Of a stretch of 47,037 bases of DNA, positions 38,324 through 43,566 are shown piece after piece. This DNA is from Herpetosiphonaceae bacterium (lineage in GTDB: Bacteria > Chloroflexota > Chloroflexia > Chloroflexales > Kallotenuaceae). Under the pieces are notes generated by a model. The model did not search any database. It worked only from the letters and a program-made list of their open reading frames with translations, and was not told where the DNA came from. Position 1 is the stretch's first letter. Every line of letters starts with the position of its first letter. Both the position numbers and the translations under genes were made by a program. The stretch lies in the NCBI GenBank assembly GCA_036374795.1, contig DASUTC010000259.1:1-47037 (forward strand), written 5' to 3'.

Positions 38324-38869
38324 ATGACGCGACAACGCATCGCATTCACGATCATGCTGGCCTATCTGTGGGTGATGATGATCCTGTTGGGCAGCATCGC
38401 CATCGAGACGTTTATGATCTATCCCAATATTTTCCACAACCCGCCGGAGTCGTTCGACATCGCGCTGAAGTTCATGTCGGTTCGCGCTCCAAACGACTTC
38501 TTTCCGCCGCTCGGTTTTCTTAGCTGGGTGACGGGCGCGGGGGCCTTGCTCCTGGGCTGGAATGTGCGCTCAGCACGGTATTGGATCTTGGGTAGCCTGC
38601 TGATGATCGTGTGTGAGGGACTGGTTTCGATGGCGTTTTTCTGGCCGCGCAACACGATCATGTTTATCGAGGGGCCAGCGGTCCATTCGGCGGCCTTTCT
38701 GCGGCAGACCGCTCAAGAGTTCCAGACGCTCCACTGGTCAAGGGTGGCGTTCAATCTGGCGAGTTCGGTATTCATCTTCACGGGCTTCTTGAAGTTCTAC
38801 CGCCATAGGATCATCGCTCAGCACGCGCTGACGGCCCCACGCGGTACAATACAGGCAAGAGGAGCCTGA
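38324..38869 (+). CDS. four-helix membrane protein, possibly DUF1772-like
   Basis: A 181-aa membrane protein with four hydrophobic segments (about 8-30, 62-82, 88-110 and 148-165). The stretch NTIMFIEGPAVHSAAFLRQTAQEFQTLHWSRVAFNLAS recalls the HW.R motif of DUF1772/anthrone-oxygenase-like proteins, but I am not sure of the match. GAGGAG lies 6 nt before the ATG. Its stop overlaps the next ATG by one base (TGATG), so it is probably translationally coupled to the nuclease gene. Confidence 0.7.
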   Translation: MTRQRIAFTIMLAYLWVMMILLGSIAIETFMIYPNIFHNPPESFDIALKFMSVRAPNDFFPPLGFLSWVTGAGALLLGWNVRSARYWILGSLLMIVCEGLVSMAFFWPRNTIMFIEGPAVHSAAFLRQTAQEFQTLHWSRVAFNLASSVFIFTGFLKFYRHRIIAQHALTAPRGTIQARGA

Positions 38870-40524
38870 TGAATCTGCGCGATGCAATCACGGTCAACAA
38901 TCAGCCGCTCAGCGCGGCAGCGCCGGTCGGCGATTTCTACGAGTGGCAGCCGATCGAGATTGGCTGCGCGCCGCAGCCGGGCGTAGTGGCCGCGCGGCTG
39001 CGGATCGATGCTGCCGACCTGGGCTCGCCGACGACGACGCTGGGCGATACGACCTGGCGCTGGCGCTGGAATCCGCAGCACGCGGTCGGTCGCTTCGAGG
39101 CGACGCTTGAGCTGCGCCGCGCCGACGATACGACGACCGAGTCGTTCGAGCTGCGGATCGTGCCGCGCAAGCTCGACCTTGAGCGCTACGAGGCGCTGAT
39201 CACGGCAGTGCAGCGCGATGCCTATGCGATCGTCTATGCGCTGAGCGGTGGTCGCGAGGGCGCGACGCTCCAACCTCCATCCGCTCCGCAGCGTCCGCTC
39301 GTCGAGGAGTACTACACGCTGGTCGAGCGGCATGTCGCGGACGCTTTGGCGCTGGTCAAACAGATCGGGCCGCGACCGCATCACACGTTGCAGCCGCAGC
39401 CGACCGAGACACAGTTGCCGGAGGTCGATCGGCTGGAGGCGGCGGCGCTGGCCGAGGCGCTGCGTGGCCCGCTGGACGATCTGCCCGACGATGTGCTGCC
39501 GCCGCTTCAGGCGGCGCTGCGTCCGCCTGAGCGCGTGCGCGGCGGTCCCGTGCCGCGCATGGTCCGTACCGCCCGCTCGACCGCGTCGCACGATGTGATC
39601 GAGCACCGGCTGCTGAAGCATGTGCTGCATGTGCTGCTCTGGCGCATGGGCTTTGTGCGCGAGATGGTGCGTCGCGAGCTGCTGCGCCGCCAGCGTAACG
39701 CGCAGGTGATCGACGAGGGCGGCGCGCTCGCTACGTTTGAGCGCTGGCACAAGCGCTGCGGACGAGCGCTGCGCGATCTGCGCAAGGCGCTTGAGTCGCC
39801 GTTCCTGGCGGGCGTTGCCGCGCTGCATGCGCTGCCCGGTCCCACGCACCTGATGCGCCACGACCCGCGCTACCGCCGCCTGTACGAGCTATACCGACAC
39901 CTGCGCGCCGTGCCGTTCATCGCTCTGGACAGCCCGACGCTCTGGCTGCCGATCCAGGAGTTGCCGCTGCTCTACGAGCAGTGGTGCGCGCTGCAAGTCG
40001 TCAACGCGCTGCTGCCGATGGGCGAGATCCTTGTGCAATCGCTTGTGGCGCGCGCCCAGCAGGCGACCGATCCGATCCGCAGTAGTCGCTGGACCCTTCG
40101 CCTCAGCCAGAACACGCCGCTGCTGACCGTGCGGCGCGCGGATGGAGCCCGGCTGGCTGTCTGCTACCAGCGGCGCTACCAGCCCCAGCCGCCGTCGAGC
40201 GCGGTGCTCGGCGCGCTCGATCCGTTTGTGCGCATCCCCGATATTGCCGTGGAGCGCGCGCGCGCCGAGCAGCCGCAGGAGGTGCTGATCTTCGACGCCA
40301 AGTATCGTGTCGCGCCCGATGGCTGTGTGCCCCAGGACGCGCTCGACGATGCCTATGCCTACCGCAGCGCGATCGGCGTGGCAGGAGCGCGGGCGACACT
40401 CGGCACGTTTTTGCTCTTCCCCGGCACCGTGCCGCTCATCACCGCCGATCGGGTCGGCGCGCTGCCGTTTCAGCCCGGAGCTACTGCCGACCTCGCGCAG
40501 GTGTTGCAGCAAGCTTTCGGATAA
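38869..40524 (+). CDS. DUF2357 / DUF524-type PD-(D/E)XK nuclease
   Basis: A 551-aa protein. The N-terminal half (about 1-280) matches the general plan of DUF2357: a strand-rich start, then a long helical region. The C-terminal third holds a PD-(D/E)XK nuclease site: Asp458 in RIPDIAVE, and Asp476 and Lys478 in VLIFDAKYRVA, followed by DALDDAYAYRSAI. Proteins of this type usually accompany McrB-like AAA+ GTPases in modification-dependent restriction. No such partner gene is in the window. AGAGGAG precedes an ATG that overlaps the upstream membrane-protein stop. Confidence 0.8.
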   Translation: MNLRDAITVNNQPLSAAAPVGDFYEWQPIEIGCAPQPGVVAARLRIDAADLGSPTTTLGDTTWRWRWNPQHAVGRFEATLELRRADDTTTESFELRIVPRKLDLERYEALITAVQRDAYAIVYALSGGREGATLQPPSAPQRPLVEEYYTLVERHVADALALVKQIGPRPHHTLQPQPTETQLPEVDRLEAAALAEALRGPLDDLPDDVLPPLQAALRPPERVRGGPVPRMVRTARSTASHDVIEHRLLKHVLHVLLWRMGFVREMVRRELLRRQRNAQVIDEGGALATFERWHKRCGRALRDLRKALESPFLAGVAALHALPGPTHLMRHDPRYRRLYELYRHLRAVPFIALDSPTLWLPIQELPLLYEQWCALQVVNALLPMGEILVQSLVARAQQATDPIRSSRWTLRLSQNTPLLTVRRADGARLAVCYQRRYQPQPPSSAVLGALDPFVRIPDIAVERARAEQPQEVLIFDAKYRVAPDGCVPQDALDDAYAYRSAIGVAGARATLGTFLLFPGTVPLITADRVGALPFQPGATADLAQVLQQAFG

Positions 40525-41040: not shown

Positions 41041-41089
41041 ACGCGCGACGAAGATGCAACGGTGCTGAGGCGAAAGGATCGTGCGTACT

Positions 41090-41773
41090 ATGGCGCGACG
41101 ACAACAGTCTCGAGGGTCGTGTGTCTTTTGCGGGAAATCGATGACGCGCGGTGGTCTTGCCAGGCACCTGGCAACCTGCTCCGAGCGCCAGGCGGCGATC
41201 CAGCGCGCCGATCAGGGCAAGGGAGCCGAAGATCCCTGGTACCATCTCCAGATTCAAGACGCAGGCTATGGCGATTATTGGCTGCATATCGAGATTCGCG
41301 GCTCAGCATCGCTCGCCGTGCTCGATCAGTATTTGCGCGCGATCTGGTTGGAGTGCTGCGGACATCTCAGTCAATTCTCGGTTGGCGGATGGAGCGGGCA
41401 GGAGATTGCAAAAAACCGCAAAATTGCGCAGGTCTTCCAGCCAGGCGTGACGGTGACGCATATCTATGATTTTGGCACGTCCTCAGAAACCTTGATCAAG
41501 CTGGTCGGCACTCGTACCGGCAAGGCGCTGACAAGACACCCGATTGTGCTGCTGGCGCGCAACGATCCGTTCCAGGCGCAGTGTATCGAGTGCGAACAGC
41601 CTGCGATCTGGCTGTGCATCCAGTGCCTCTACGAGGACGAAGCGGGCGGAGTGCTCTGTGATCGTCATGCCGAGGAGCATCCGCACACCGACTACGGAGA
41701 GCCGATGCCGCTGGTCAACTCGCCGCGAGTTGGCATGTGTGGCTATGGGGGACCGGCAGAGCCGCCCTACTGA
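41090..41773 (+). CDS. zinc-finger / pRiA4b ORF-3-like protein
   Basis: A 227-aa protein. The N-terminal finger CVFCGKSMTRGGLARHLATC supplies a CCHC site. The middle (about 50-145) resembles the plasmid pRiA4b ORF-3/IS1096-passenger domain (YHLQIQDAGYGDYWLHIEI, VTHIYDFGTSSETLIKLVG). The C-terminus has further Cys/His pairs (CIECEQPAIWLCIQC, GVLCDRHAEEHPH) that look like a second zinc site. The family often sits near mobile elements, and its role is unknown. The start is unsure: AAAGG is 12 nt before ATG 41090 and only 4 nt before GTG 41081. Confidence 0.78.
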   Translation: MARRQQSRGSCVFCGKSMTRGGLARHLATCSERQAAIQRADQGKGAEDPWYHLQIQDAGYGDYWLHIEIRGSASLAVLDQYLRAIWLECCGHLSQFSVGGWSGQEIAKNRKIAQVFQPGVTVTHIYDFGTSSETLIKLVGTRTGKALTRHPIVLLARNDPFQAQCIECEQPAIWLCIQCLYEDEAGGVLCDRHAEEHPHTDYGEPMPLVNSPRVGMCGYGGPAEPPY

Positions 41774-42295: not shown

Positions 42296-42330
42296 GTCCT
42301 GGGTATGATGAACCTTCATCTGCCCAGGAC
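42296..42330 (+). other. hairpin in the gene-free stretch before the doc unit
   Basis: GTCCTGGG pairs with CCCAGGAC, and an inner ATGAA-CC-TTCAT stem sits inside. The rest of 42182-42439 shows no supported gene. It may belong to a small RNA or be a structured leftover. Confidence 0.35.
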
Positions 42331-42439
42331 GCATGCCGTCCACCTCTACTGTCTCCCCCTGGTCCTGAGCAGGTTCCAAAGTGTATACTGGATACGTTCT
42401 CGATCCAGGCAGCGCGTGCCGGGTCGAGGCGATCGGGCA

Positions 42440-42468
42440 TTGAAGCAGCATGGGAAGTCTGCTATAGT
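42440..42468 (+). promoter_or_regulatory. promoter of the doc unit
   Basis: TTGAAG (42440-42445), 17 nt, TATAGT (42463-42468) preceded by TGC. Transcription would begin near 42475, only about 3 nt before ATG 42478. Confidence 0.7.
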
Positions 42469-42477
42469 TCGCGGAAT

Positions 42478-42705
42478 ATGGAAAAATATCTGAATGACAT
42501 GCTAACATTGCCCGCCGATGCCGTTCCTCCGGCGCTCGACGAATGGCTGTCTGCTCACGAGTCCGTCGCGCTGCTGGTATCGCTCGAACGCCTGCCCGAT
42601 GGACGGCTTGTGCTGCAAGCGCTGCCCGATGTCGATCCGACGCTGGTGGCGCAGATCCGGCGCGTGCTGGCGCAGCACGCCGATGTGCTGCGCAGGCTGA
42701 CATGA
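42478..42705 (+). CDS. 75-aa small protein, putative antitoxin of the doc unit
   Basis: An acidic, leucine-rich, probably helical protein (MEKYLNDMLTLPADAVPPAL, then ESVALLVSLERLPDGRLVLQ and DPTLVAQIRRVLAQHADVL). It does not look like Phd, AbrB or MazE antitoxins, and I see no Fic-inhibitory (S/T)xxxE(G/N) motif. Its promoter places the transcript start about 3 nt before ATG, and there is no Shine-Dalgarno sequence, so translation is probably leaderless. The stop overlaps the first doc ATG by four bases. The antitoxin role is inferred only from position and size. Confidence 0.6.
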   Translation: MEKYLNDMLTLPADAVPPALDEWLSAHESVALLVSLERLPDGRLVLQALPDVDPTLVAQIRRVLAQHADVLRRLT

Positions 42706-43115
42706 GCGACGACGTGCTGCCGCTCCAATCGCTGAAGCTGACCGAGATCTTTCTGATCCACGAATTGCTGATCGAGACATTCGGCGGCATGCGCGGTGTC
42801 ACCGAGCACGGCTTTGGTAAGCTGGAAGCCGCCGTAGCCGCGCCCGATGTGTCGATGTTCGGCGAGGATTTGTACGTGGGCCTGCCCGCAAAGGCGACCG
42901 CGCTCTTTTTTCGCCTGGTCCGCGCGCATGGCTTCTCGGACGGTAACAAGCGCGTCGCACTCGTGGCACTGATCGTGTATCTGGAACGGAACGGCATGAG
43001 GCTTCATGCCGATGACGATGCTGTGTATGATTTCACGATGGCGGCGGCAACCGATGCGACGCAGGAGCAGGTCGCGGCGTGGATCGAAGCGCGGTGTGTA
43101 GCGTATGCCGATTGA
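42702..43115 (+). CDS. Doc/Fic-family toxin-like protein 1
   Basis: A 137-aa Fic-fold protein of the Doc (death-on-curing) subfamily. Doc of phage P1 phosphorylates EF-Tu and halts translation. The active-site motif is HGFSDGNKRVAL, with His76, Asn82, Lys83 and Arg84, close to the P1 Doc pattern HxFxDANKRTA. VYLERNGMRL follows, as usual. It overlaps the small upstream gene (ATGA) and the second doc gene (11 bases), so all three form one operon. All the residues I can check in the loop are intact. Confidence 0.85.
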   Translation: MSDDVLPLQSLKLTEIFLIHELLIETFGGMRGVTEHGFGKLEAAVAAPDVSMFGEDLYVGLPAKATALFFRLVRAHGFSDGNKRVALVALIVYLERNGMRLHADDDAVYDFTMAAATDATQEQVAAWIEARCVAYAD

Positions 43116-43566
43116 GTATCTGTCACAATTCGACGTGCTGCAAATTCGTACCAGGCTGGCCGCGCAGGTGCGTACCTCGTTCGACGAGTGGAATCTGCAC
43201 GGCCTCCAGTCGGCGCTGGCCGCTCCCCGACAGTCGATGTTTGGCATAGAGCTGCAGCCGACGCTGTGGGATAAGGCGGCGATCCTCTTGTCGCTGCTGA
43301 TCAAAAACCATCCGTTTCACGACGGCAACAAGCGCATCGCCTTTATCGCGGCGCAGGAGTTTCTGCGCCGCAACGGCTGGGACCTGACCGTGAGCATGCC
43401 TGAGGCGGCGGCGTTTACGACGGGCATCGCCGCCGGACGGGTGGACGTGCCTGAAATCGTGAGCTGGCTGCAAGCGAATGCAGAAGCGAGAACAGAGCAC
43501 AAAGACGCCGGGTGCCCTTTGGGCATGGGCACCCGCATGGCACCCGGAACCAAGAACAGGGGATAA
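43105..43566 (+). CDS. Doc/Fic-family toxin-like protein 2 with repeat-derived C-terminus
   Basis: A second Doc-type protein, 153 aa, with active-site motif HPFHDGNKRIAF (His69 to Arg77) followed by EFLRRNGWDL. The loop is intact and closer to HPF-type Fic motifs. The two Doc proteins are clearly related but not near-identical, so this is not a fresh duplication. From about residue 127 on, the frame runs through a repeat element (heptads and a GGGTGCCC palindrome), giving the tail EARTEHKDAGCPLGMGTRMA and a few more residues. The original stop has probably been lost. Confidence 0.83.
   Translation: MPIEYLSQFDVLQIRTRLAAQVRTSFDEWNLHGLQSALAAPRQSMFGIELQPTLWDKAAILLSLLIKNHPFHDGNKRIAFIAAQEFLRRNGWDLTVSMPEAAAFTTGIAAGRVDVPEIVSWLQANAEARTEHKDAGCPLGMGTRMAPGTKNRG

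Follow-up and report, generated by a model that had tools for sequence, protein, structure and literature searches.

A conserved three-gene unit of a small putative antitoxin gene and two tandem Doc-type Fic genes in an order of Chloroflexota

A small gene followed by two different genes for Doc-type Fic proteins was found in a 47,037-nucleotide stretch of DNA (hereafter the window) from the 7.7-Mb assembly of a Herpetosiphonaceae bacterium. This arrangement raises the question of whether the locus is a toxin-antitoxin (TA) system, what role the small protein would have in it, and why there are two Docs.

Architecture and distribution of the unit

The three genes (Table 1) lie where the preliminary description of this locus had placed them, with a 4-base overlap between the small gene and Doc1 and an 11-base overlap between Doc1 and Doc2. 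The layout is that of a type II TA locus, in which a small gene overlaps, or lies directly upstream of, a gene of a toxin family. The single promoter proposed in the same description is plausible, short of proof, because the spacing is identical in a relative (G003, locus L006: TTGAAC-17-TATAGT-9-ATG) and a -10-like hexamer stands 6-8 bases 5' of the ATG at three other loci. As 9 bases separate the candidate promoter from the first ATG, in G003 as well, the mRNA of the small gene is probably leaderless. A scan for operator repeats (42330-42500) returned 6-base palindromes and one 6-base inverted pair, and nothing longer.

Table 1. Features of the three-gene unit in window coordinates
Feature	Position	Strand	Description
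Putative sigma-70-like promoter	42440..42468	+	TTGAAG-17-TATAGT, from a consensus scan
Small gene	42478..42705	+	75 aa; predicted antitoxin, AbrB-derived core without DNA-binding strand plus C-terminal bent helix
C-terminal helical segment of small protein (residues 54-75)	42637..42702	+	Putative Doc-binding (Phd-C-like) element; predicted helices, C-terminal match to RHH-type Doc antitoxin
Doc1	42702..43115	+	137 aa; Doc-type Fic protein, loop HGFSDGNKRVA; Pfam Fic, NCBIfam DOC_P1
Doc2	43105..43566	+	153 aa; Doc-type Fic protein, loop HPFHDGNKRIA; Pfam Fic, NCBIfam DOC_P1

The small gene is present in 25 of the 82 genomes of the order, spread over four families (f1 to f4) and including all four genomes of the window's genus. 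Doc1 accompanies it in every case (25/25) and Doc2 in 23, such that the doubt raised earlier, whether the genes stay together in relatives, is settled in favor of the unit; one genus (G025 and G026) has Doc1 without Doc2. In most loci Doc1 follows the small gene directly, and in four f2/f3 loci it lies 0.25 to 1 kb further downstream. The 4-base overlap between these two genes is seen in 13 of the 21 genomes in which both positions were assigned (spacing of -4 in f1 and most f3, small gaps in f2), and Doc1 and Doc2 overlap in 18 of the 20 unfused pairs measured. Moreover, the two Docs are fused as a single open reading frame in two genera (275 aa in G033 and 273 aa in G035), with both loops intact. 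Among the matches listed, this unit provides the only close tandem Fic pairs in the order.

In a tree of 81 Docs, all Doc1 form one clade (support 95/91) and all Doc2 another (83/96), and within each clade the branching is broadly that of the families. Because each Doc forms one clade, the tree indicates that the duplication predates the families and that the pair was inherited together. Given these separate clades and a gene order that recurs in four families, the unit is far more than a chance assembly, and it recurs across the order instead of being a local oddity. For the small gene, Doc1, and Doc2, the dN/dS values of the pairs tested are between 0 and about 0.3, which indicates purifying selection. 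When 400 genomes of the phylum were searched with a profile, the small protein was confined to the order except for one weak partial match, and no match was found in plasmid and phage records (protein search) or in viral contigs (pattern scan).

This distribution bears on the possibility of a domesticated signaling module, namely, a vertically inherited pair of regulatory enzymes with a small regulator, for which target modification would be part of normal physiology. The small gene is single copy in 6/6 f1 and 8/9 f3 genomes, the Doc trees follow families, plasmids, phages, and viral contigs gave no matches, and a related pair beside lysS looks domesticated (see below), all of which suit such a module. 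However, both catalytic loops are intact everywhere, and the occurrence in f2 and f4 is sporadic, as for a dispensable TA locus. We regard this explanation as unlikely.

The neighborhoods of the unit differ among families. A DUF2357/PDDEXK_7 (McrC-like) protein of 551 aa is encoded at 38869-40524 of the window, about 2 kb from the small gene, with a pRiA4 ORF3-like gene (41081-41773) in between; in the other f1 genomes its homolog is directly upstream of the small gene. This candidate for a restriction system within the unit was rejected because it is near the three genes in f1 only, and f3, f2, and f4 have other neighbors. Downstream of the unit in f3 come two genes that overlap, one encoding a sigma-70/ECF-like factor and the other a GAF histidine kinase (L096:10088-12578, L107, L095, and L097). 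A PEP-synthase-like gene is located 3' of the Docs in three f2/f4 loci (L102:9323, L104, and L105).

The two Doc proteins

Doc-type Fic proteins carry the loop HxFx(D/N)(A/G)NKR, in which Lys replaces the Gly of AMPylating Fic proteins (GNGRxxR). The preliminary description reported two non-identical Docs with intact HxFxDGNKR loops, and this was borne out: the loops read HGFSDGNKR in Doc1 and HPFHDGNKR in Doc2, and both proteins score above the cut-offs of Pfam Fic (PF02661; E 2.1e-13 for Doc1 and 3.7e-16 for Doc2) and NCBIfam DOC_P1 (TIGR01550). The residues H, D, G, N, K, and R are kept in all 25 Doc1 and all 23 Doc2. With all six in place in every copy, neither Doc is a dead copy, and both are likely active enzymes of the Doc (kinase-like) type, for which EF-Tu would be the target by analogy. 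The idea that one Doc serves as a degraded, Doc-derived neutralizer, also put forward earlier, is unlikely, as a degenerate second Doc was sought among these proteins and not found. PADLOC matches of the Docs (PDC-S23 and others) were set aside; the candidate proteins are longer and the matches are confined to their Fic core, and for this reason no defense system is claimed.

The best PDB sequence match of Doc2 is the Enterococcus faecalis Doc (chain 9vzc_A, E 1.6e-12). The Doc fold was compared using a model of the natural fusion protein of the relative G035, in place of the window's own Docs: its Doc1 half superposes on P1 Doc with Z 16.6 (2.2 Å over 121 residues), and for its Doc2 half the agreement with Fic structures is weaker (Z about 8.7, 3.4 Å over 120 residues). 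The AlphaFold model of this fusion has two Doc/Fic domains, with a domain orientation that is not fixed (pTM 0.50). A plain input alignment put all Docs on the first half, and different selections of rows were tried until each Doc aligned with its own half, a step that affected only that model. The last approximately 25 residues of the window's Doc2 (43480-43566) have no counterpart in relatives and extend into a repeat-like intergenic stretch; for these reasons the functional end of Doc2 may be earlier than the end of the open reading frame.

Why would two intact Docs be kept side by side? Two toxins with separate targets could share one antitoxin without pairing physically, and the divergence of Doc1 from Doc2 (approximately 36% identity), their separate clades, and the different residues around F in their loops are in line with this. 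However, the fusion in two genera and the conserved coupled overlap favor a fixed stoichiometry, and we consider independent toxins improbable. Another arrangement is known from the fic1-fic2 genes of Campylobacter fetus (PMC5651007), the nearest tandem precedent, in which tandem overlapping Fic genes form a functional unit and Fic1 restrains Fic2. That one catalytically intact Doc restrains the other in the same way would agree with this precedent, with a Doc1-Doc2 fusion that suits an inhibitor in cis, and with the loci that have Doc1 but lack Doc2. Unlike the Docs described here, Fic1 is of the AMPylation type and acts via its own built-in inhibitory helix, the (S/T)xxxE(G/N) motif of which is absent from 14/14 Doc2 and 15/16 Doc1 rows scanned. 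Moreover, the C. fetus genes have no small leader gene, whereas the present unit already includes a dedicated antitoxin-like gene. A regulatory Doc is therefore also held to be a poor explanation of the pair.

The small protein and its relatives

No Pfam, NCBIfam, or PADLOC family matched the small protein above cut-off. For a Phd/YefM domain in particular, no match was found in Pfam or NCBIfam, and remote kinship is possible all the same. Weak matches to BscB, YscB, Hsp33, and Hook3 (Pfam, NCBIfam, PHROGs, and PDB sequences) were attributed to chance because they are below cut-off and scattered. In the alignment of this family (hereafter A1; 24 aligned members), the conserved features are a C-terminal P-x-L...R...A...L..L pattern and a W-L in the first main helix. 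The predicted structure (pLDDT 77, pTM 0.51) consists of a helix, two strands, and C-terminal helices at residues 54-66 and 68-74, and Foldseek and VIA-align found no significant structural match for it, the AbrB swapped-hairpin fold included.

Profile comparisons were more informative. Residues 36-75 of the small-protein profile match AbrB-type Doc antitoxins with a score of 27.7, compared with 16.8 for the best of 100 column shuffles. The 16 antitoxins in this set were taken from loci upstream of Docs, almost all of them proteobacterial, and are relatives of MazE/AbrB, as shown by their own comparison (43.7 vs 20.2). In addition, 9 of the last 24 residues are identical, without gaps, to the C-terminal end of an RHH-type antitoxin that forms a separate pair with a single Doc elsewhere in the window's genome (G000:C268:16500-17080, L001; shuffle p about 1e-5). 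These sequence comparisons indicate that the small protein is related to AbrB-type Doc antitoxins in its second half. The preliminary description had found it to look like no standard antitoxin, which holds for the family searches and fails for this half and for the C-terminus.

For the N-terminal half, the kinship with AbrB is indirect, through a second Chloroflexota family of Doc partners (A2). Over the full length, the small protein matches A2 with 28.6 vs 20.1 in shuffles, and A2 matches MazE with 26.1 vs 18.7. Direct comparisons of A1 with MazE and of A2 with AbrB-type Doc antitoxins were no better than shuffles, and an ungapped, end-anchored comparison of the core A2 C-terminus gave no match (p 0.8).

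The earlier observation that the small protein has no recognizable DNA-binding part was upheld. The N-terminal strand with its G(N/A/S)S DNA-binding loop is absent in 24/24 aligned members, and the small protein starts past the point where AbrB proteins have this strand. Also, the (S/T)xxxE(G/N) motif of class I Fic antitoxins was found in none of the 24 A1 members. The best reading of these patterns is an AbrB-descended antitoxin that would have kept the neutralizing helix and lost DNA binding. The small protein therefore turns out to be half of what the preliminary description feared, an ordinary Phd/AbrB homolog: it is apparently of AbrB descent, but it is too divergent for an ordinary AbrB-type antitoxin and lacks the GxS strand, a defining feature of that class, so the three-gene unit was not filed as an ordinary member.

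A2 is of interest in its own right. This antitoxin-like family of 71 aa has 24 invariant positions and is present in 64 of the 82 genomes of the order. Among the 45 loci examined (G000:C3:37049-37551, L003 and L122, and 44 further loci, L123-L166), lysS is directly upstream of A2 in all 45, and a Doc protein follows A2 in 44. The loops of these Docs have lost Lys and Arg in 44/44, the acidic residue in 41/44, and His in 25/44. Together with lysS and a Doc pseudoenzyme, A2 makes up a gene cluster that belongs to the core of the order. Judging from the sequences, A2 and its pseudo-Doc resemble an antitoxin-pseudotoxin pair that has been domesticated and tied to lysyl-tRNA synthetase. This cluster may be more striking than the three-gene unit.

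Proposed mechanism and comparison with known systems

We favor the reading that the unit is an old, largely vertically inherited variant of a type II TA system with one antitoxin and two Doc toxins (probability about 0.6). A single transcript with coupled translation would yield the small protein, Doc1, and Doc2. The antitoxin would descend from AbrB-type Doc antitoxins through loss of the N-terminal strand and GxS loop for DNA binding, leaving a small core that folds and a bent helix at the C-terminus, and it would presumably have no DNA-binding autoregulation. The helix would lie in the groove of a Doc as Phd-C does, keeping the Doc inactive, and by analogy the small protein would bind both Doc1 and Doc2 through it, perhaps as a Doc1-Doc2 pair. 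Because the gene order is translationally coupled and the Docs are fused in two genera, which argues for a fixed stoichiometry, it is most likely that the two work together or are kept together as a pair (Doc1-Doc2-antitoxin). Against this reading, one genus has Doc1 alone, and an addiction module would not usually be so strongly conserved (here in two families) or be missing from plasmid, phage, and viral collections. A heterodimeric Doc1-Doc2 enzyme with a small non-DNA-binding regulator, that is, a domesticated, vertically inherited Fic signaling device of the order that is sister to the lysS-linked pseudo-Doc pair and not an addiction module, is possible but doubtful.

Several known systems share parts of the TA arrangement that we favor. 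AbrB/MazE-Doc pairs such as TasAB (PMC1626090; PMC2701414) also have a small antitoxin gene directly upstream of Doc and a related C-terminal antitoxin part, but they have one Doc, and their antitoxin keeps the N-terminal GNS/GxS strand. The P1 phd-doc system shares the Doc fold and loop (as in the Doc1 half of the fusion) and a small upstream partner with C-terminal helices; unlike it, the three-gene unit lacks a recognized Phd/YefM domain, has two Docs, and is chromosomal and largely vertical. In the Phd-Doc system of E. faecalis (PDB 9VZC; PMC13034048), the closest solved sequence relative of Doc2, the bent C-terminal helix of Phd drives Doc dimerization with the loop exposed. A toxin dimer mediated by the antitoxin is proposed for the three-gene unit by analogy, but the E. 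faecalis dimer consists of one Doc and its Phd binds DNA. In Corynebacterium doosanense (PMC10440598), Phd-C consists of two C-terminal helices that neutralize Doc independently of the antitoxin remainder, and SUMO-fused Phd-C suffices for this; a similar role may be proposed for the helices described here, although the remainder is a Panacea domain (Doc:PanA) in that system and would be an AbrB remnant in ours, and that system has one Doc. The departures from phd-doc and TasAB are therefore the antitoxin without a DNA-binding strand, the two Docs, and the long inheritance in one order. No description of such a three-gene unit was found in the titles, abstracts, and passages covered, which represent the literature in part.

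If the favored reading is true, a single antitoxin that has no part for binding DNA has governed two toxins, which co-evolve and are fused in some lineages, for as long as the bacterial order has existed. The unit would then provide a natural test of Doc pairing, of partner choice by Phd-C-like helices, and of the chromosomal fixation of Doc systems, and the lysS-linked pair of A2 and pseudo-Doc would be an end point of the route to such fixation.
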